A stretch of DNA of 64,000 nucleotides from Candidatus Heimdallarchaeota archaeon (GTDB lineage Archaea > Asgardarchaeota > Heimdallarchaeia > Hodarchaeales > Hodarchaeaceae). Of the stretch, positions 18,733 to 31,508 are shown in pieces. The stretch lies in contig CP070695.1 in NCBI GenBank assembly GCA_020353515.1, forward strand, positions 1,170,660 through 1,234,659, written 5' to 3'. A program made the position numbers and the translations under genes. The notes beneath the pieces are model-generated. The model was not told the DNA's origin. It saw only the letters and a list, made by a program, of their open reading frames with translations, and searched no databases. Within the stretch, counting starts at the first letter, position 1. Each line of letters starts with the position of its first letter.

Positions 18733-19794
18733 ATGAAACTAGGTTTAGCTGTACAATCTCTATATAATTCCTTGAAGAAAGTTCCCACACCCAAGAGTAT
18801 TACAAGCAATGAAATTGTCAGAAAGGCAATTGAATTTGACAAACCACCAAGAATTCCTTATTGTATGTTTTTTCATCCTACGAGAGGTGATATTTTTGAT
18901 ATTGGGTTTATTGGGAAATGGTTAAGACCCAATAAGCCGAAATTCAAAAATGGTTTTTATTTCGATGAATGGGGTGTCAAATGGCAGGTCACAGGACGGT
19001 GGTGGGACACTGCAGTTGAACATCCGTTGGCTGATTTACGTGTTTTACAGGACTATCAATTTCCTAGAATAGTTCCAAGAGGGATGTACCCAGTATTCAG
19101 AACTCTTGCTAGATTAGCTCGACGTAAAGGAAAGTATATTGTTGTTCCAAACTTAGTTGATATGTATGAAAGAATGAGAGCATTAATGGGCTTCGAAGAG
19201 TTGATGGTGGCTCCATATAAGCAGCCAAACTTATTGGAAGAGCTTTTAGATCATTTGGCTAATATGACAATTGAGATTATTGAAAAGTATGGTAAAACAG
19301 ATTTATTCGATGCTTTCATGACTTGGGAAGATTGGGGACTTCAAACAAGTCTTCAGATGAAAATAGAGACCTTTCGCCAATTCTATAAGCCTAGATATAA
19401 ACGTATCATAGATACTACTCATTCTAACGACATGCACTTCATCTGGCACTGTTGTGGGTATATTATGGATTTGATTCCGGAAATGATTGATTTAGGTGTT
19501 GATGTAATCCAAATAGATCAACCTCGATTAATGGGACATCAAGAGCTAATTGATCAGCTTGGTAGGAAAATGTGCATGTGGAATTGTGTAGATATTCAGT
19601 GGAGTAATAGATCGGAAAGAACTGAAGAAGAAATTTGTACCGAAATCAAAGAAATGATTCAGACCTATAACGTACCTAAATATTCAGGGGGATTCATCTT
19701 TCGTAATTATCCTGATCCAGAAGATATTTCCATATCAAAAGACCGTCAAATTTTAATCAATCGAACTTTCTTAGATTTCATTAATGGGAAGTGA
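18733..19794 (+). CDS. UroD-superfamily protein, methyltransferase-like
   Basis: 353 residues of the uroporphyrinogen decarboxylase superfamily (COG0407), which also contains the MtaA/MtbA corrinoid methyltransferases. The zinc-type motif HCCG (H-x-C-G in HFIWHCCGYIMDL, about residue 238) and a later Cys pair (KMCMWNC) favour a methyl-transfer enzyme over the decarboxylase; the RxPVW-type UroD opening is absent (RIPYCMFFHPTRGD). A 19-bp gap separates it from the GH38-like gene, so they are probably one operon. No corrinoid protein lies nearby, so substrate and acceptor are unknown. Confidence 0.65.
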   Translation: MKLGLAVQSLYNSLKKVPTPKSITSNEIVRKAIEFDKPPRIPYCMFFHPTRGDIFDIGFIGKWLRPNKPKFKNGFYFDEWGVKWQVTGRWWDTAVEHPLADLRVLQDYQFPRIVPRGMYPVFRTLARLARRKGKYIVVPNLVDMYERMRALMGFEELMVAPYKQPNLLEELLDHLANMTIEIIEKYGKTDLFDAFMTWEDWGLQTSLQMKIETFRQFYKPRYKRIIDTTHSNDMHFIWHCCGYIMDLIPEMIDLGVDVIQIDQPRLMGHQELIDQLGRKMCMWNCVDIQWSNRSERTEEEICTEIKEMIQTYNVPKYSGGFIFRNYPDPEDISISKDRQILINRTFLDFINGK

Positions 19795-23061: not shown

Positions 23062-24726
23062 CTACTTACTTGTATAGATCTCTTTATACTTCATCCGTAT
23101 AGCTTTCTTGTCTATCTTCCCTACACTTGTTTTTAATATATTTGTAACATAAAGAATCTCATCAGGTAATTGCCATTTAACAAATTTTTCAGCGAGGTAT
23201 TTTCTGATTTCATCTTGGGTTACCTTTGTTTTGAATTCATCTCTTAAGACCACTAACGCTAAAGGTCGCTCTTCCCATTTGGGGTGCGGACATCCAACAA
23301 CTGCAGCTTCAAGAATTGGAGGATACGAGATTAAGGCGTTCTCCATATCTACAGAAGATATCCATTCCCCTCCACTCTTAATTAAGTCTTTAAGCCTGTC
23401 TGTAATTTTTAAATACCCCTCTGGACTGATAGTTCCAACGTCACCACTTCTGAAGTATCCCTCATCAGAGAATTGAGCCTCAGATTCAGGAGCATTATAG
23501 TAACTTCCAGAAACCCAAGGCCCACGAAGAAGAACTTCTCCTGCTGATTCACCATCGTGGGGAAGTTCCCTCCCATTTTCATCCACTATTTTAATATCAA
23601 GTCCTACTACAATATACCCTTGCTTTCTCTTGAAATCCCATTTATCTTCCTCTGAGAATCCTTTTTCTAAAATTGGGATTACTCGATTCAAGGTTACAAT
23701 TGCATGAGCTTCAGTCGAACCGTATGAATGAATGATTTCAGCACCAGTTAAATCCATATAATCCTTCATCATTGCAACAGGAGGTTCTGAAGCTCCTGAA
23801 ATAATCCGCACTCCGGTTAAATCAGGTTTTGGCTCCATTTTCCTGATATATTCTAACATTGGCATCAATATAGCGGGAGCTCCATTAGCCATTGTTACCT
23901 TTTCCTCAACTAGAAGCGTCGTAAGGTCTTCTAGATTCTTTAAACTGTACCTACCAGGAAAAACTAGTTTAGCTCCAACTATAGTGGCAGCGTAAGGAGT
24001 TCCCCATCCAAGAACATGAAACATTGGTACGAGTTGAAAAACCGTGTCTTTTATCGAAATCGAAGCATTAGCGGCATACATCAAGGCTTGGAGATAAACA
24101 TCGCGATGGGAATAATAGACTCCTTTCGGTCTTCCTGTTGTCCCACTAGTGTAACAAGCAGAATAAGCGGAGGTTTCTTCGATGATAGGCCAATCGTAAT
24201 CAGGAGACGCTTCCCCTAACATCTCTTCGTAGCTGTAAATCGGTTCTAGGGAGGTTGAAATATCACTCAATGGTTTATCAGTGATGATTACATATCCTTT
24301 GACGGTCTTACAAAAAGGTGCAATCGCTTCAGCTACATGAAGCAAATTTTCGTCTACAAAGATGAATTTTGCCTCCGCATGGTTTACTACATAACTCAAT
24401 TCTTGTTGAGAGAGGCGTAAATTCAACAGAAGCATAACAGCTCCAGTACCAGGTAAACCATAATAAATTTCAAAGTGACGGTAAGTATTCCACTCAAGAA
24501 CACCAATTTTCTCACCCACCTCTATTCTTAAAGACACTAGAGAGTTTGCCAACCTTTTAATACGCTCATATGCTTCCTTATATGTGTAACGAAATAAACT
24601 TCCATCATGTTTCCTGCTGACAATTTCCTGCTTTCCAAAGCTCCGTGCTGCATGTTTAAGAAGAGTTGTTACATTTAATTGATAATTGGTCTGTGATGTA
24701 GCTGAAAATCCCTTAACGATCTCCAT
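23062..24726 (-). CDS. AMP-forming acyl-CoA synthetase
   Basis: About 554 residues from the ATG at 24726, chosen because AAAGGAGAAAG stands 6 bp upstream; a start at 24768 would bury that site. The ANL motifs are complete: P-loop YTSGTTGRPKG, SYGSTEAHA, the GYFRSGDVG hinge region, and the C-terminal LKTSVGKIDKK with the adenylation Lys. The layout is closest to medium/long-chain fatty-acid CoA ligases (FadD-like). It probably activates fatty or branched acids for beta-oxidation or lipid turnover. A second ANL ligase is at 45162. Confidence 0.85.
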   Translation of the reverse strand: MEIVKGFSATSQTNYQLNVTTLLKHAARSFGKQEIVSRKHDGSLFRYTYKEAYERIKRLANSLVSLRIEVGEKIGVLEWNTYRHFEIYYGLPGTGAVMLLLNLRLSQQELSYVVNHAEAKFIFVDENLLHVAEAIAPFCKTVKGYVIITDKPLSDISTSLEPIYSYEEMLGEASPDYDWPIIEETSAYSACYTSGTTGRPKGVYYSHRDVYLQALMYAANASISIKDTVFQLVPMFHVLGWGTPYAATIVGAKLVFPGRYSLKNLEDLTTLLVEEKVTMANGAPAILMPMLEYIRKMEPKPDLTGVRIISGASEPPVAMMKDYMDLTGAEIIHSYGSTEAHAIVTLNRVIPILEKGFSEEDKWDFKRKQGYIVVGLDIKIVDENGRELPHDGESAGEVLLRGPWVSGSYYNAPESEAQFSDEGYFRSGDVGTISPEGYLKITDRLKDLIKSGGEWISSVDMENALISYPPILEAAVVGCPHPKWEERPLALVVLRDEFKTKVTQDEIRKYLAEKFVKWQLPDEILYVTNILKTSVGKIDKKAIRMKYKEIYTSK

Positions 24727-24864
24727 TGTACTTTCTCCTTTCTTATTAATAAGTGAATGAATCTCCATCTATTTAGGTTTTAACTTCAAATGATTAGAAA
24801 TATAAAATTAAAGCTGAAAATCTGAATAGGATTAGACTCACAGAATTACTTAATGTGAAAAGAC

Positions 24865-25842
24865 ATGGGAATTATCACATCAACAACAGAAATCATGGCT
24901 TATATTTTATTCTTTATAGTTATCTCTATATTAAGTTTCAGAAGGGATTTTCACTCTGTCGCTCAAGTCTTAAGCGGGAGTTTATTTGGAGTGACTCTTG
25001 AGTACATGAATATCCAAGTTATGCAAACATATATTTATTCCTCTCAATTCCTTCTCCAACTTGGGTCTCCTCCTGATAATATTCCAATATGTATCGGATT
25101 GTGCTGGGGACTAATAATTTATGCGTGTATGAATGTCTCAAACAAAATAATTGAGATTCCAGAATGGTTGAAACCTCTATTGGATGGCCTTTTGGCATTA
25201 ACTATTGATCTATCTATGGATACAATAGCTATCCGCCTAGACGGAGGCTTTTGGACTTGGTTAGAAATCCCTATGGAGAATCTCCCGACTTTGAATAGTT
25301 TTTTCGGAGTAAATTATGGGAACTTTGTAGGATGGTTCTTTGTTGTGTTAATTTTTTCGACAATGTTAAGGATTGAAGAAAAATGGATAGCAAAGAAATT
25401 CAGTAGATCAGTAATTTTAGTATTATATTTTCTCATTATTCCATTCTTTTCATACATCCCCTTATTTCTATCATTTCATACACTCCCTCTCCCAGTGTTT
25501 ATTATTTTTAATATTCTAGGTTTCAATGGTGAATCTACAAATTTAATGGAACTAGCGATACTTGTATATATAATGACCTTGGTCAGTATAATATTTTTCA
25601 TAGCTTTAATCCGTTCAAAACCTAAATTAGAAAAAGATGCCGATTTATTGTCATTGACTATTTTTATGTTCTTTCATTTAAGCTACTTGGGTTTTTATTT
25701 ACTAGATGGATTATTTGAAGAAACACCTTTGATTCTTCTTATAGCAAGTCTTATGTTTACTATTGATGCAATGATTCACTACAGTATTCTCGACAAGAAA
25801 AGGTTAAGCCTCCAAATTGAAAAACTGAAAAAGGCATTATAA
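24865..25842 (+). CDS. CruF-like membrane protein (carotenoid hydratase family-like)
   Basis: 325 residues with eight or nine membrane segments. The middle part reads LALTIDLSMDTIAIRLDGGFWTW, then GVNYGNFVGWFFVV. It resembles the PF04240 family (CruF / bisanhydrobacterioruberin hydratase), whose mark is a D..D.....G.W.W stretch followed by N..GW. No other carotenoid gene lies in the window, so the substrate may be another isoprenoid. The start ATG at 24865 lies 138 bp from the divergent acyl-CoA ligase gene. Confidence 0.5.
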   Translation: MGIITSTTEIMAYILFFIVISILSFRRDFHSVAQVLSGSLFGVTLEYMNIQVMQTYIYSSQFLLQLGSPPDNIPICIGLCWGLIIYACMNVSNKIIEIPEWLKPLLDGLLALTIDLSMDTIAIRLDGGFWTWLEIPMENLPTLNSFFGVNYGNFVGWFFVVLIFSTMLRIEEKWIAKKFSRSVILVLYFLIIPFFSYIPLFLSFHTLPLPVFIIFNILGFNGESTNLMELAILVYIMTLVSIIFFIALIRSKPKLEKDADLLSLTIFMFFHLSYLGFYLLDGLFEETPLILLIASLMFTIDAMIHYSILDKKRLSLQIEKLKKAL

Positions 25843-26096
25843 AGTTAATAATTCACTACTAAAACATATGAAATAACTAAATATCTTACTTAATAGTTAT
25901 ATAAAGAAACTAAACATAATTTAGCGGGTTTAAAAATACTTAATAACACTCAGTTTACAAGTCGAAGTGATGGACGGATCATAATATTAGACACACACGA
26001 ATTCTTCCAATCATGAATGGAACAATAAAACTGATTGATATTAATGAAAATCACTCTTAAATGAGTTATCTACCTGAATATCAAGAGGTTATATGA
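25843..26096 (+). promoter_or_regulatory. Leader of the sulfate-reductase gene with TATA-like boxes
   Basis: TTATATAAAG (25898-25907) and TTTAAAAAT (about 25930-25938) are both archaeal TATA-like. AAGAGG at 26080-26085 is a weak ribosome site for the ATG at 26097. The leader would be 130-165 nt if either box is used. I found no strong hairpin or riboswitch-like structure by eye. Confidence 0.35.
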
Positions 26097-26924
26097 ATGA
26101 AATTTTCAATGAGAGAAAAAAGAAAGAAAGTTGATTCATTGAAAAAGGATTTCATAGGTAGAGATGTTTCAGAGATCATTCTACTTTCTTTTGATGAATT
26201 TGGAGAAGATTTAGCTATGACTACTGCTTTTGGTTATAGTGGTGTCGTATTGATGAGCTTTATCAAAGAAACGGTGCCTGATCTTCCAATATATTTCATT
26301 GACACACGTCTTCACTTTCAAGAGACTATTGATCTCATGAATAAGATAAAAAACGAATGGAAACTAAATATTCATCATTTGTATCCTAATTTTAGCGATG
26401 AGGAGTTAGATCGCATAATTGGTAAAAAGGCATATAGCACAAATCCGGATATATGTTGCCATTATAGAAAAGTTATGCCCCTTCTTAAAATTCTTGAGAC
26501 TAAGAGTGCGTGGTTAAGCGCTATAAGAAGAGATCAATTCAGAACACGTGCAAGAATAGAAGTTATTGAGATAGATGGTCGTGGGATGATTAAGATCAAT
26601 CCAATGTGGGATTGGACAAAAAATAAGGTCTGGTTCTATGTGAAAACCCATAATCTTCCGTACAATCCTCTTCATGACAAGAATTTTCCAAGTATTGGTT
26701 GCAAACCTTGCACATCACAGATAAAAGAGGGAGAGGATGAGAGAAAGGGGCGATGGAAGGGATTAGAGAAAAAAGAATGTGGTATCCACATATCAGAGAG
26801 TAGTGAACAATTTATACGAGAAATGGCTACAACAATTGACTTTACTTCCTTCCCAACAACAATGAAGTCTAATAACAGTGAAAAATCCAACATAAGCAGA
26901 GGGAAAACGGCAAATAAAAAGTGA
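26097..26924 (+). CDS. cysH: [4Fe-4S] APS/PAPS reductase (CysH family)
   Basis: 275 residues. It reduces activated sulfate (APS or PAPS) to sulfite. The PP-loop-like TTAFGYSGVVL (about 42-52) and IYFIDTRLHF (65-74) are in place. The cluster ligands Cys120-Cys121 (PDICCHYRK) and Cys202/Cys205 (GCKPC) point to the [4Fe-4S] APS-reductase branch, and the catalytic Cys228 sits in KKECGIH as in the family. A 40-residue Ser/Lys-rich tail is extra. The gene converges with the ComA-lyase operon, stop to stop with 9 bp between. No ATP sulfurylase is in the window. Sulfite from this enzyme is the co-substrate ComA needs. Confidence 0.85.
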   Translation: MKFSMREKRKKVDSLKKDFIGRDVSEIILLSFDEFGEDLAMTTAFGYSGVVLMSFIKETVPDLPIYFIDTRLHFQETIDLMNKIKNEWKLNIHHLYPNFSDEELDRIIGKKAYSTNPDICCHYRKVMPLLKILETKSAWLSAIRRDQFRTRARIEVIEIDGRGMIKINPMWDWTKNKVWFYVKTHNLPYNPLHDKNFPSIGCKPCTSQIKEGEDERKGRWKGLEKKECGIHISESSEQFIREMATTIDFTSFPTTMKSNNSEKSNISRGKTANKK

Positions 26925-26933
26925 AATTAATAA

Positions 26934-27701
26934 TTAAATTTCACTAGGATCATGAAATGTCAATAGGGTGTCTCCACGTAATCCTAGACGTAATGTTTCT
27001 ACAGGAATTATTTCAGCAGGAGCGATATTACCCAAATTGACATTTGGACCGAATTTTTTTATGAACCAGACCTGTTGTGCCTTCTGTGGAGCCTCCCAAA
27101 TAATTCTTTGATAGTCGATTGCATCAACAATCTCATCTACGAGACCAGTCCGAATTTCAGAGCTTCTCCGATAGAGACCTGATGTTCCTGTTTCTCTTCC
27201 TTCAGCGATCACCTTCCAAGCTCCAGCATCAAGCTCCATAATCATTCCTAACACCCACTCTTTGGGTGCAACAATTGTGGCAGCATCTTTACTCCCAAAC
27301 TCTGATAAAACAGTAAAATCTTTGGAGAACTCTTTAATAAAATCTAGCTTCTCAGATATGGTTAATGTAATTGTACCATCAGAAATTTCCATATATTTTA
27401 TTCCCAATTCTTTCATCCATTTCTTAAACTCATCAATCTTTCCTTCAGCGTACGCTACCTCAAAGAGAGTCCCACCGAATGTAACAGGGATCTTATGCTT
27501 ATGATATAATTCAATTTTTTCTTCGAGATGAGGAACAATTACTCCTAATCCCCATCCGACTTTAACTATATCAATATAATAAGCACAGGTACTAAGCATA
27601 TCTTCTTGTGTTGTGAGTCCAAACCCCTTATCTAAAACATGAGTTAATCCGATTTCTCTTGGTTTTTTAGCCCTTTCAGGAAGATTGAGTATTTTTTTCA
27701 T
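26934..27701 (-). CDS. comA: Phosphosulfolactate synthase (ComA family)
   Basis: 255 residues, the usual length. ComA adds sulfite to phosphoenolpyruvate, giving (R)-phosphosulfolactate, the first step of coenzyme M synthesis from PEP. Family signatures seen: GLTHVLDKG, YIDIVKVGWG, YHKHKIPVTFGGTLFEVA, MEISDGTITL, SEFGSKD, VIAEGRETGTSGLY and WEAPQKAQQVWFIKKFG. It overlaps the upstream lyase gene by 4 bp (ATGA). ComB, ComC, ComD and ComE homologues are not in the window, so the product is probably handled by the neighbouring lyase, ATP-grasp and aminotransferase. Confidence 0.88.
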   Translation of the reverse strand: MKKILNLPERAKKPREIGLTHVLDKGFGLTTQEDMLSTCAYYIDIVKVGWGLGVIVPHLEEKIELYHKHKIPVTFGGTLFEVAYAEGKIDEFKKWMKELGIKYMEISDGTITLTISEKLDFIKEFSKDFTVLSEFGSKDAATIVAPKEWVLGMIMELDAGAWKVIAEGRETGTSGLYRRSSEIRTGLVDEIVDAIDYQRIIWEAPQKAQQVWFIKKFGPNVNLGNIAPAEIIPVETLRLGLRGDTLLTFHDPSEI

Positions 27702-29224
27702 GATTCACCAACTTCTATCTTACCTTTTGCGACCAAAATCAGGTTATCAAGTTGTTTTAATGAACGTTCTTCACAACCGTCCCTCCATACAGATATCCCT
27801 TTGAGGGTTTTCCTACATTCCATAACCATTTCTTGGACACGTACTTTCGCAGCACCACCAAGTCCTTGTCTTGTTTCTATAATAGCTATTGGGTCGAGTA
27901 TTGAGTCAAGTTGTGGTTGTGTCAGATCAAGTTTTTTCTGAAGAACTTGGTTCGCAGCTCCATCAACAATCTCGGGAGTCAATATAAAACGTTTTTCGTT
28001 CTTCTGGATAGCTTCTCGTACTAGAATACCAACAATTTGATGAGCAGAACGATAATCAACTTTTCTTTCTTGCATAATGAGGTCAGCAAGATCTGTTGCC
28101 TGGGAGAACCCTTCTATGGCTTGTCGTGACATATTATCAGTATTAAACTTAATTTCTGCAACAAGAGAAGCCATAAGATCTATTCCCTTTGAAGCTTGTT
28201 CAAGAATTCTGGGTAATTTACCATAAACAAATATTCGAGAATCTGGATTCCCTGATGAAGTCTTTGCTACTCCTGCAATACTCGAAACAACCCCTATCAT
28301 ATCTCCTGTTAGTCCACGAATATATGTAAGTGGATAAGGATTTTTCTTTTGAGGCATGATGACACTTGCTCTACAAAATCGATCTGGAAGATCAATAAAA
28401 TCAAATTCTGTTGTACTCCAAATTTGTAGCTCTTCGGATAAACGATTTACATTTATTAAGAGAGCTAAGAGATTCGATACAGTTTCAATTGGAATATCTG
28501 GTTGCCACATTGCATCCCTTGTATGCTGCGTTATTTCATCAAACCCAAGCAATTCTTTAAGACGTAAGCGGTTAAGAGGGAGTCGCGATCCGTTTACACT
28601 TCCTGATCCAGCTGGACAGGAGTTGATCCTCTTATAAGTTGCTCTAAATCTATCCAAATCCCTTAATGCAGGATACACGAATGTTAACAAGTAGTGTCCT
28701 AAAGATGTTGGTTGCGCATGTTGTAAGTATGTAAAATCAGGCATTATGGTATCTAAATGATTCTGAGCTTGATTCAAAAATTCATCTATTAACCGAATAA
28801 AGATTCTAATAAACTTTAAGACCAATTTTCTCAGATAAAGTAAGTATCCAATGTTAATTGCTTCACGGCGAGGACGCCCTGCATGCATCCAACCTGCAAT
28901 GTGACCAATTTTTTCTTCCAGTAATCCAGCACGGACGTTATAAATGTCTCCTAACTCTACTCGTAGAGGAATATCGTTAATGTTAGTTTCCTGAAATTCA
29001 AGTAAAGCTTCAAGGAGAGTTTTTCCTTCGCTAAAAGGGATGATTCCTTCCTCTATCAACATCAATACATGAGCGATATCAGCTAATCCTATTTCATGGA
29101 AAAATATCATCTCTTCCTCACATTCAAAAGTGTAAGCGGATTTAATTAACTCCTTTGCTGCAGATGTTTTAAGTCGTCCTCCCTTTCCATAATATTCTGC
29201 AGATTCTCTGCTGTTTTTTGACAT
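27698..29224 (-). CDS. Fumarase/argininosuccinate-lyase superfamily enzyme, not ArgH
   Basis: 508 residues, somewhat longer than ArgH. It keeps the superfamily loop SVIMPQKKNP with Ser287, and DxYNVRAG/ QPTSLGH elements of the argininosuccinate-lyase branch. But the THLQ motif is TYLQ (the catalytic-site His is Tyr166), and the ArgH stretch KG-P-YN-D-QEDK is replaced by AKTSSGNPDSRIFVYGK. Bacterial coenzyme M synthesis uses superfamily relatives (XcbC1/XcbD1) to remove phosphate from phosphosulfolactate and add ammonia to sulfoacrylate. Its 4-bp overlap with comA makes such a step likely here. The reaction is inferred, not read from sequence. Confidence 0.72.
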   Translation of the reverse strand: MSKNSRESAEYYGKGGRLKTSAAKELIKSAYTFECEEEMIFFHEIGLADIAHVLMLIEEGIIPFSEGKTLLEALLEFQETNINDIPLRVELGDIYNVRAGLLEEKIGHIAGWMHAGRPRREAINIGYLLYLRKLVLKFIRIFIRLIDEFLNQAQNHLDTIMPDFTYLQHAQPTSLGHYLLTFVYPALRDLDRFRATYKRINSCPAGSGSVNGSRLPLNRLRLKELLGFDEITQHTRDAMWQPDIPIETVSNLLALLINVNRLSEELQIWSTTEFDFIDLPDRFCRASVIMPQKKNPYPLTYIRGLTGDMIGVVSSIAGVAKTSSGNPDSRIFVYGKLPRILEQASKGIDLMASLVAEIKFNTDNMSRQAIEGFSQATDLADLIMQERKVDYRSAHQIVGILVREAIQKNEKRFILTPEIVDGAANQVLQKKLDLTQPQLDSILDPIAIIETRQGLGGAAKVRVQEMVMECRKTLKGISVWRDGCEERSLKQLDNLILVAKGKIEVGES

Positions 29225-29245
29225 TCTAAATCAGCTCATTCGATA

Positions 29246-30325
29246 TTACCCAATTTTCTTACCTAATACACTAGGAACATGAAAATCTTTTACACCATAT
29301 TGTTCATAATAACGGATTGTAATTCTACCGTATTGTATTTTTGATTTTTGAGCAGCTAGTTCTTCTTTTGTAATTTCACCAAGAAGCCATTTTAACGCTA
29401 GATAAGGTAAAACTAAATCATCTTGATAAGCAAAAGTAGATACTCGTGGGTTTATTTCGATGAGATGTTCTCCTTTGAATTGAACATTGATACAATAATC
29501 TAGTCCCAGCTCTTTCATTGCATGTTCAGAGTATGATTCTAGATCTGGACGATTCAAGGTTTTAAAGATCATTGCTAAACCTGATCGTGCTTTTTCACGA
29601 GTTTTCACAGTCGCTAGTAGAGTCTCACCATCTGAAACTAAAGTATCGACTGTACATTCGGGGCCTTCTAAGTATTCCATAAGTAAAAACTGAGGCAGAT
29701 CAATATCTTGAAACATTTCAACGAATTCATTCATGGACATAAATCGATTGAAAGGAAGTTGGTTCATTAATATATCAACTTTATTAATTTCTGGATCTAT
29801 TATCCTAAATCCACGACTTCCTTTCGAAATGTGTGGTTTGAAACAAACTCTCTTATTTGGGAAGCCCAATAACTTAGCACATTCTTGAAATTCATCGAGA
29901 TCTTTTGGATAATAGTATTCTGGTGTTTTTAATCCTCGAGATTTTAAGAATTCAAACAACTCATATTTATTATTGCATATTTCAATTGGTTCAGGTTTAG
30001 AAACCATTACATTAACGTCAAGGTTCTCAAATTTCTTTTTATTTCGAGATATAGGACCAACTTCGGACGAAGATTGAGGAAACAAAATATTGGGTTGCTC
30101 TTCTTCAATAATAGTCAGTAAGGATTGGATATAATCCTCATCATTTGCTGGTGGAACAATATAAGGGGAATCAACCATATTGAAACCAGTTGCATAAGGA
30201 TTCATGTCGATACCAATAATCGTGATTTCCCTCTCTCCGTTATTTTTCAGGCGCCGTATCAAGGCTGGTGCGCCAGGACATCCTACTGATGTGAGTAGTA
30301 TCTTCAATGGTCTTTTCAAAGTCAT
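29246..30325 (-). CDS. ATP-grasp ligase (CarB/PylC-like)
   Basis: About 359 residues; ATG at 30325, with a TTG one codon earlier. An N-terminal pre-ATP-grasp part (ILLTSVGCPGAPALIRRLK, then IGIDMNPYATG) leads into the ATP-grasp core: ICNNKYELFEFLKSRG, RVCFKPHISKGSRGF, a grasp loop LLMEYLEGPECTVDTLV and the metal site LIEINPRVS. These enzymes join a carboxylate to an amine via acyl phosphate. It sits 21 bp upstream of the ASL-like gene in the comA operon, which suggests that a sulfonated amino acid is ligated to another group. No similar gene is part of the known coenzyme M routes. Confidence 0.8.
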   Translation of the reverse strand: MTLKRPLKILLTSVGCPGAPALIRRLKNNGEREITIIGIDMNPYATGFNMVDSPYIVPPANDEDYIQSLLTIIEEEQPNILFPQSSSEVGPISRNKKKFENLDVNVMVSKPEPIEICNNKYELFEFLKSRGLKTPEYYYPKDLDEFQECAKLLGFPNKRVCFKPHISKGSRGFRIIDPEINKVDILMNQLPFNRFMSMNEFVEMFQDIDLPQFLLMEYLEGPECTVDTLVSDGETLLATVKTREKARSGLAMIFKTLNRPDLESYSEHAMKELGLDYCINVQFKGEHLIEINPRVSTFAYQDDLVLPYLALKWLLGEITKEELAAQKSKIQYGRITIRYYEQYGVKDFHVPSVLGKKIG

Positions 30326-30428
30326 CAATACCCTGAAATATTCCTATTATTAGGATAAATGTTATAATTGATCAAATTTAGACTAACTCAAAAGATTTCC
30401 TTTAAGTCTTTGAATTGATAAAAGCTCA

Positions 30429-31508
30429 TCACATTTCTTTGATAGCTAAGCTCAATTTCTCAAGTCCTTTCTCCAGTTCTTCGGTTTCTCCTCCAAAACC
30501 AAGACGGAAAAAATGATCCATTTTGAAACAATAACCTGGGACTGTGAAAGTTCGGTATTTCTCCACCAAAAGACGACAGAGCCTCTCTGAAGACTCATTA
30601 AATCGAGGAAAACAAGTAACACTACCCTTAGGAGGTATAAAACTGAGACGATCCTCATCCTCCATCCAATCAAAAACAATATTATAATTCTCCTTAATCC
30701 TCTGCATGATAGTTTTTAAGTGTCGATCTTTCTTTCGTAAAATTTGAAGTGCGATGGCCTCATTTAAAGCTGAATTACAGATTGTTGTCTGTTCCCTAAC
30801 TTTCAGGATGCCATCAATTATTGTTTTCTCTAGAGAAGCACTCCATCCGACGCGTATTCCAGGAAGACCGTAAACTTTGGACATTGTCGATACACTAATC
30901 ACATTAGAACTTAAATTGGCTGCAGGTGGCAAAACTTTCCCAAAGGTTAATTCACGATATGTTTCATCCAGTAATAAGTAAATATTTCGATCTTCAACAA
31001 TATCAATAATTTGTTTCAACTCTTCTATAGTTATGATTGATCCAGTTGGATTATTAGGGTGGGTTAAACATATAAGCTTTGTATTTGGTTTTATCATGTC
31101 CTCAAGCTTCTGAAAATTTGGTTTAAATCGCTCTTCAAAATCTAAAAAGAACAAATCCATTGATCGTTCCAAAGATTGTGGAATATACCAAAAAGAGGGA
31201 TAATTTGGACATTCTACTATAATATGGTCTTTCTTACTTGTTAAAGAAGCCATAATGGAAAAAATTGATTCCGCTGCTCCTGTTGTTACAGCAATATTAT
31301 CCCAACCTAATTTCTCATAAAAACTTGCAATCTGTGTTCTTAACTCAGGGTTTCCTAAATGATGAGTATATCGTAATTCAACCTCATTTAAATTCAAGTC
31401 TAATTCCCCAAGCTTTAGAAATTTAACTCCACTTTCTCCAATATCATAATCAACATCAAATTGGTATTTATCAAACCATTCTTCTAGAAGCATTCGTTTA
31501 AATGTCAT
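30429..31508 (-). CDS. Fold-type I aminotransferase in the comA operon
   Basis: About 359 residues from the ATG at 31508, chosen for the GAGGTAGGT site just upstream; the longer frame to 31634 adds 42 atypical residues. Class I/II aminotransferase features: CPNYPSFW, THPNNPTGS, LLLDETYREL and the PLP lysine in STMSKVYGLPGIRVGW. It resembles the gene at 39230 and belongs to the aspartate/capreomycidine-synthase-like group. Placed first in the operon, 103 bp before the ATP-grasp gene, it may interconvert sulfopyruvate and cysteate or supply the partner amino acid. Confidence 0.8.
   Translation of the reverse strand: MTFKRMLLEEWFDKYQFDVDYDIGESGVKFLKLGELDLNLNEVELRYTHHLGNPELRTQIASFYEKLGWDNIAVTTGAAESIFSIMASLTSKKDHIIVECPNYPSFWYIPQSLERSMDLFFLDFEERFKPNFQKLEDMIKPNTKLICLTHPNNPTGSIITIEELKQIIDIVEDRNIYLLLDETYRELTFGKVLPPAANLSSNVISVSTMSKVYGLPGIRVGWSASLEKTIIDGILKVREQTTICNSALNEAIALQILRKKDRHLKTIMQRIKENYNIVFDWMEDEDRLSFIPPKGSVTCFPRFNESSERLCRLLVEKYRTFTVPGYCFKMDHFFRLGFGGETEELEKGLEKLSLAIKEM

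Follow-up and report, generated by a model that had tools for sequence, protein, structure and literature searches.

The window analysed here, a 64,000-nucleotide stretch of contig CP070695.1 from Candidatus Heimdallarchaeota archaeon (assembly GCA_020353515.1; genome G000, a single contig of 4.94 Mb with completeness 96 and contamination 7.4), contains a compact locus in which a gene for a (phospho)adenylylsulfate ((P)APS) reductase, CysH, faces genes for the phosphosulfolactate synthase ComA, a lyase of the aspartase/fumarase superfamily, an ATP-grasp ligase and an aminotransferase (Table 1). An earlier reading of the sequence only had described these five genes as a sulfonate-synthesis locus, and their positions and family assignments hold, as judged by the coordinates of the open reading frames (ORFs) and by Pfam and NCBIfam scores; the 9 bp between the stop codons of CysH and ComA and the 4-bp overlap of the lyase and ComA genes that it reported are likewise present. 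CysH scored 140 bits with PAPS_reduct and carries the CC...CxxC motif of the [4Fe-4S] type, the lyase scored 105 bits with Lyase_1 and the aminotransferase 174 bits with Aminotran_1_2, and the ATP-grasp protein matched ATPgrasp_Ter/PylC-like_N. ComA passed PF02679 (298 bits, cut-off 25.2) and was below the cut-off of the archaeal equivalog TIGR03849 (250.7 vs 280). The aminotransferase ORF begins with a TTG (31634), the ATG at 31508 being a plausible start.

The aminotransferase gene lies 100 bp upstream of the other minus-strand genes in the same direction, and the sequence-only reading had joined all of them into a four-gene operon, which proved to be an overstatement. A 76% ortholog of the aminotransferase is found in the congener G050, 49 bp from the ortholog of the window AMP-ligase, and orthologs of 53-57% occur in family f28, none of them with ComA or the lyase. 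In another congener, G045 (L189), the stops of the aminotransferase and of the CarS ortholog (64%) are 32 bp apart, i.e. the site is empty. Because the flanks of the cassette adjoin each other in G045, the unit consists of four genes without the aminotransferase, and what is extra at the window site is exactly CysH, ComA, the lyase and the ATP-grasp ligase (25843-30428). On the evidence of these orthologs and of the empty site, the aminotransferase was rejected as a pathway member; it is a resident gene outside the cassette and probably has no part in the pathway.

Table 1. Features of the cassette and its flanks, numbered from the first letter of the window
Feature	Position	Strand	Role	Basis
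CysH, [4Fe-4S]-type (P)APS reductase	26097..26924	+	Sulfite supply; cassette member	Pfam/NCBIfam, CC + CxxC motifs
ComA, phosphosulfolactate synthase	26934..27701	-	Cassette member	PF02679, 298 bits
XcbC-family lyase, aspartase/fumarase superfamily	27698..29224	-	Cassette member; predicted phosphate elimination to sulfoacrylate	NF052535, residues, tree
ATP-grasp carboxylate-amine ligase, PylC-like N-domain	29246..30328	-	Cassette member; predicted amidation of sulfonated acid	
Class I/II aminotransferase	30429..31508	-	Resident neighbour, probably not a pathway member	Orthologs without ComA or lyase
Inserted cassette	25843..30428	.		Absent at the same site in congener G045 (L189)
CarS, Caroten_synth-like membrane protein	24865..25842	+	Resident flank of the insertion	64% ortholog beside the aminotransferase in G045
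AMP-dependent acyl ligase	23062..24768	-	Resident flank	77% ortholog directly downstream of the aminotransferase in G050

Among 228 genomes of the phylum, the XcbC-like lyase (E 1e-147) was unique to G000; all other lyase matches were far weaker, and the best of them grouped as ArgH. Within the genus, ComA was not found in the 11 other members, nor was a CysH homolog at E<=1e-25 in 10 of them (the eleventh has one at 34%), these absences resting on drafts of 70-93% completeness. Conservation of the gene order, a check proposed together with the sequence-only reading, was not seen in Asgard relatives, whereas ComA, the lyase and an ATP-grasp gene recur together in bacteria. Because the genes are broadly distributed in bacteria and absent in the relatives, transfer would have been into the archaeon, and we infer that the cassette was laterally acquired by one Asgard archaeon. 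Base composition was discarded as a sign of transfer, the GC content of the cassette (about 0.34-0.38) being like that of its flanks, and the ends of the cassette, searched for inverted and target-site repeats, gave short, chance-like matches only. Contamination as the origin is unlikely, given the single-contig genome and the genus orthologs on both flanks.

When scored against 18,950 NCBIfam models, the lyase had CoM_syn_XcbC (NF052535), a family named for coenzyme M (CoM) synthesis, as its top model with 493 bits; argH (TIGR00838) followed with 309 bits, which passes the cut-off of that model (279.5). The scores alone do not settle the identity, but the residues do. At the position of the ArgH motif SRNDQ the window lyase has PRREA, and all XcbC-family rows of the alignment read (P/A/T)RREA or PRREP; the histidine of the ArgH motif YTH is a tyrosine (TYLQ), and the family word DAMW (DAMWQ in the window lyase) stands in place of the ArgH sequence. 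All three sets of XcbC-family residues, R-R-E-A, T-Y-L-Q and D-A-M-W, are thus present, and the serine ahead of the MPQKKNP loop is conserved. The window lyase shares 34-41% identity with the lyases of the CoM operons L115, L114 and L089, and Asgard ArgH proteins form a separate clade in the lyase tree (support 100). The argG gene was not found in G000, with control genomes positive in 14 of 14 cases, and the other Lyase_1 proteins of the genome amount to PurB only. That the lyase is an ordinary ArgH lying near ComA by chance would account for the argH score, but this identity was rejected, since argG is missing and the ArgH motifs are replaced, and its probability is negligible; the separate Asgard ArgH clade, the overlap with the ComA gene and the same pairing in many bacteria also speak against it. 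The earlier comparison of the enzyme with the lyases of the bacterial Xcb route is upheld, and as a member of the XcbC family it is predicted to eliminate phosphate from phosphosulfolactate.

Scanning 84,980 genomes, one for each species, returned 80 bacterial loci; 32 of them had a CoM set (XcbA-B-C-D-E or parts of it), 22 had lyase and ComA without XcbD, and 26 had no ComA in view. The 22 non-CoM loci contained a flavoprotein in 12 cases, a DegT aminotransferase in 9, an ATP-grasp protein in 7, a GT2 glycosyltransferase in 7 and CysH in 4, each of which occurred in 0 of the 32 CoM loci; the enrichment of the flavoprotein (Fisher p 2e-6) is descriptive, because the loci are related and the groups were formed after the contexts had been seen. 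This flavoprotein is fumarate-reductase-like, related to NadB and TfrA/FrdA, and retains most of the HP, HYxxGG and RLxxNS motifs of fumarate reductase (FRD), with the catalytic arginine being kept in the five closest operons and not in several others. In L047, FRD, lyase, ComA and CysH form a tight operon with overlapping genes, and in L066 lyase, ATP-grasp, FRD and ComA are four adjacent genes. Genes for DegT aminotransferases, GT2, NeuB, a CMP-transferase, Maf or an N-acyltransferase accompany the non-CoM loci; L069, for example, adds NeuB, a cytidylyltransferase, an AMP-ligase and an aminoglycoside N-acetyltransferase-like gene, and L064 has a Maf flagellin glycosyltransferase. No description of such flavoprotein-type ComA-lyase operons was found in the literature searched.

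Trees of the two proteins gave concordant placements. The window lyase was at the base of one flavoprotein-type operon clade (98 by the Shimodaira-Hasegawa-like approximate likelihood ratio test), outside both the Asgard ArgH clade and the group of the CoM operons, which answers the phylogenetic comparison suggested earlier, and the window ComA was also at the base of a flavoprotein-type operon clade (99/93). A tree of concatenated lyase and ComA joined the window pair with five flavoprotein-type bacterial operons (100/99), and a tree constraining this pair to the CoM loci was rejected (p of the approximately unbiased test 1e-5). Because both proteins fall with the flavoprotein-type operons and the CoM grouping is rejected, these phylogenies indicate that lyase and ComA share one history with a bacterial non-CoM lineage. 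ComA proteins of other Asgard genomes were considered as kin and dismissed, as they lie on a different branch with no lyase relative in view and the window ComA groups with bacterial ComA.

Several further loci were noticed in the scan. In L045:2-9354 (Anaerolineales), lyase, ComA and CysH run straight into nonribosomal peptide synthetase (NRPS) genes with adenylation, condensation and carrier domains, a candidate for a sulfonated peptide or lipid. In L034:2567-9438 (Desulfovibrio), an XcbC-like lyase and a divergent ComA-like protein are encoded together with a fumarase-family gene and a TctC receptor, a set that perhaps serves the catabolism of a C3 sulfonate. XcbC-like lyases without ComA were found in a conserved neighbourhood in Chloroflexota (L059, L060, L062, L067, L068), and a large, mostly actinobacterial clade of XcbC-like lyases (L092-L113) has, for the most part, no ComA in view. 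Lyase and ComA pairs without XcbD or flavoprotein occur in L038, L041, L043, L046, L050 and L053-L055, L038 adjoining an MBOAT acyltransferase and L053, titled Klebsiella pneumoniae, being most likely a mislabelled metagenome-assembled genome.

The ATP-grasp protein retains the catalytic residues K164, E291, N293 and R295. Its structure, predicted with confidence (pLDDT 85.7), matched 2pn1 (TM 0.67) and PylC (TM 0.59) in Foldseek, and the matches include L-amino acid ligases; we agree with the earlier statement that such a ligase is used by no known CoM pathway. Each of the three nearest homologs, all from Asgard archaea and 43-48% identical, adjoins a PIG-L deacetylase gene, and two of the three also a glycosyltransferase-like gene; these neighbours fit acylation of a freed sugar amine. 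As a separate matter, the Asgard pairs of ATP-grasp and PIG-L deacetylase (L140, L141, L142) likely form a sugar deacylation/re-acylation module independent of sulfonates.

A second sulfonate locus, located 148 kb before the window (G000:C1:about 1019010-1022412; L205:7011-10413), contains a CysH paralog, a cysteate synthase (TIGR03844, 532 bits vs cut-off 325) and a fused ComDE (TIGR03845, 158 with cut-off 148; TIGR03846, 212, under the cut-off of 221.5), embedded in a glycan cluster that also encodes WbuX, glycosyltransferases and a cytidylyltransferase-like protein. Cysteate synthase and ComDE constitute the phosphoserine route to sulfoacetaldehyde in Methanosarcina (PMC12068725). A search of the genome for comDE, as had been suggested, is thus positive; mcrA was not found in G000, in line with the supposition of a non-methanogenic archaeon. 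Because of this separate cysteate synthase-ComDE locus, CoM is unlikely to be the purpose of the window cassette, and because the second locus sits in a glycan cluster, sulfonated glycans become likelier in general. A literature search on Asgard archaea with cysteate synthase found nothing relevant. Within the window, a URO-D family protein (18733-19794) is weakly similar to methylcobalamin:CoM methyltransferases (38 bits vs cut-off 244).

We propose, with a probability of about one half, that the laterally acquired four-gene cassette makes a C3 sulfonated acid and couples it by an amide bond to an amine, the likeliest acceptor being an amino sugar on a surface glycan. CysH would supply sulfite, which ComA would condense with phosphoenolpyruvate (PEP) to (2R)-phospho-3-sulfolactate, a step already put forward in the sequence-only reading and supported here. 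The XcbC-type lyase would then remove phosphate to yield sulfoacrylate, a fumarate analogue in which a sulfonate replaces one carboxylate. In the bacterial loci, the fumarate-reductase-like flavoprotein may reduce sulfoacrylate to 3-sulfopropionate, which an ATP-grasp enzyme, or an AMP-ligase with an N-acyltransferase, would place on an amino sugar. In the archaeon, the ATP-grasp ligase may activate the carboxylate of sulfoacrylate itself, or of 3-sulfopropionate made by an unlinked flavoprotein, and form the amide with the amine, most likely that of a surface-glycan amino sugar. The ComA and elimination steps are predicted by homology to characterised enzymes and the amide step and the glycan by genomic context, the sugar acceptor being the weakest step. 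Among the products offered previously (CoM, cysteate and a sulfonated dipeptide-like compound), the evidence agrees best with a sulfonated amide, for which an amino sugar is no less likely than a dipeptide; CoM is not supported.

Several observations weigh against this proposal. Neither the cassette nor its flanks were found to encode the flavoprotein, and G000 has three full-length FAD_binding_2 proteins, which resemble succinate dehydrogenase (SDH), SdhA/FrdA and NadB. Glycan genes beside the cassette were not found in the window, and the window ATP-grasp belongs to a different subfamily from those of the bacterial ComA-lyase loci. The lyase is under the curated XcbC cut-off (493 vs 575 bits) and over that of argH. 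No PF01747 ATP sulfurylase for APS supply was found, CysD/CysN not having been searched, and the literature yielded no assays of enzymes of the non-CoM ComA/lyase group.

Synthesis of CoM along the Xcb pathway of bacteria, or along a new variant of that pathway, is suggested by ComA and the XcbC-family lyase, the first two CoM-specific enzymes of Xanthobacter, and by the identity of the lyase to those of CoM operons; the chemistry of that pathway is taken here from NCBIfam names, PMC11507031, PMC12068725 and general knowledge. This route was rejected on the lack of an XcbD in the genome, where the other Lyase_1 protein is PurB, on the non-CoM locus context and on the concatenated tree. Since, moreover, the ATP-grasp has no role in the Xcb pathway, mcrA was not found, the individual trees set both proteins outside the CoM group and sulfoacetaldehyde would be available from the second locus, CoM is a very unlikely product. 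An XcbE-type pyridoxal phosphate (PLP) enzyme and XcbA were not seen beside the cassette, no genome-wide search having been made for them.

A soluble sulfonated peptide or amino-acid amide (an osmolyte, metallophore or cofactor), in which the ATP-grasp would join sulfoacrylate or sulfopropionate to an amino acid supplied by the neighbouring aminotransferase, is unlikely but deserves more weight than CoM. The L-amino acid ligases and PylC among the structural matches, the continuation of L045 into NRPS genes and the codirectional aminotransferase next door point to it, whereas the genus has that aminotransferase also where the cassette is missing, the nearest ATP-grasp kin lie in sugar deacetylase contexts and glycan loci account for many of the related bacterial loci of flavoprotein type. 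Addition of ammonia or water to sulfoacrylate by the lyase or aminotransferase, giving cysteate or sulfolactate, would be in keeping with the reactions of aspartase/fumarase enzymes and with the adjacent aminotransferase; it is highly improbable, as a cysteate synthase is encoded elsewhere in the genome, the aminotransferase is outside the cassette and the ATP-grasp would be left without use.

Beyond this archaeon, ComA and XcbC-type lyases may constitute a general non-CoM module that provides sulfoacrylate and 3-sulfopropionate acyl groups for surface glycans (in one case for an NRPS product) across bacteria and was acquired by the Asgard archaeon, which would make sulfonated sugar amides a new class of compounds and give a fumarate-reductase-like enzyme a biosynthetic use not known before; we hold this wider view tentatively, at slightly less than even odds. 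If true, annotating genomes for CoM by the ComA-XcbC pair would be risky, as the pair would be no marker of it; bacterial surfaces would repeatedly be decorated with sulfonated acyl amides; and an Asgard archaeon would have two independent routes to sulfonates but no methanogenesis. In gut and sediment, C3 sulfonates are food for sulfite-respiring bacteria, and the cassette points to a little-known branch of sulfonate chemistry. 3-Sulfopropionate is known from sulfoquinovose breakdown (PMC11489063); neither a biosynthetic route to it nor a glycan bearing it was found in the literature searched, and searches on sulfopropionyl glycans and sulfoacrylate returned degradation papers only.

Compared with known systems, the cassette resembles the XcbB-XcbC module of Xanthobacter autotrophicus Py2 (pXAUT01, L115) in pairing, in overlapping or adjacent genes, ComA with a phosphate-eliminating lyase of one family, the RREA, TYLQ and DAMW residues being common to both; it differs in having no adjacent XcbA, XcbD or XcbE, in having CysH and an ATP-grasp, and in belonging to a separate clade. 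With the methanogen CoM routes (ComABCDE, and phosphoserine-cysteate synthase-ComDE; PMC12068725) it has ComA in common, and cysteate synthase-ComDE is present elsewhere in the genome, but mcrA is absent from the genome and no ComB, ComC or ComDE gene lies in the cassette, ComB, ComC and ComF (MMP16) not having been searched genome-wide. The PylC/PRK12767-type ligases are like the window ATP-grasp in fold and kept catalytic residues, although at only 18-20% identity. The closest relatives of its ComA and lyase are the flavoprotein-type operons of Pseudomonadota, Bacteroidota, Nitrospirota, Verrucomicrobiota and Actinomycetota, mostly in glycan clusters (L036, L037, L047, L064, L066, L069, L070, L071, L085, L101); the archaeal cassette differs from them in having neither the flavoprotein nor glycan genes beside it and in the subfamily of its ATP-grasp, but ATP-grasp and CysH, its two further members, are also found in 7 and 4 of the 22 loci without XcbD, respectively.

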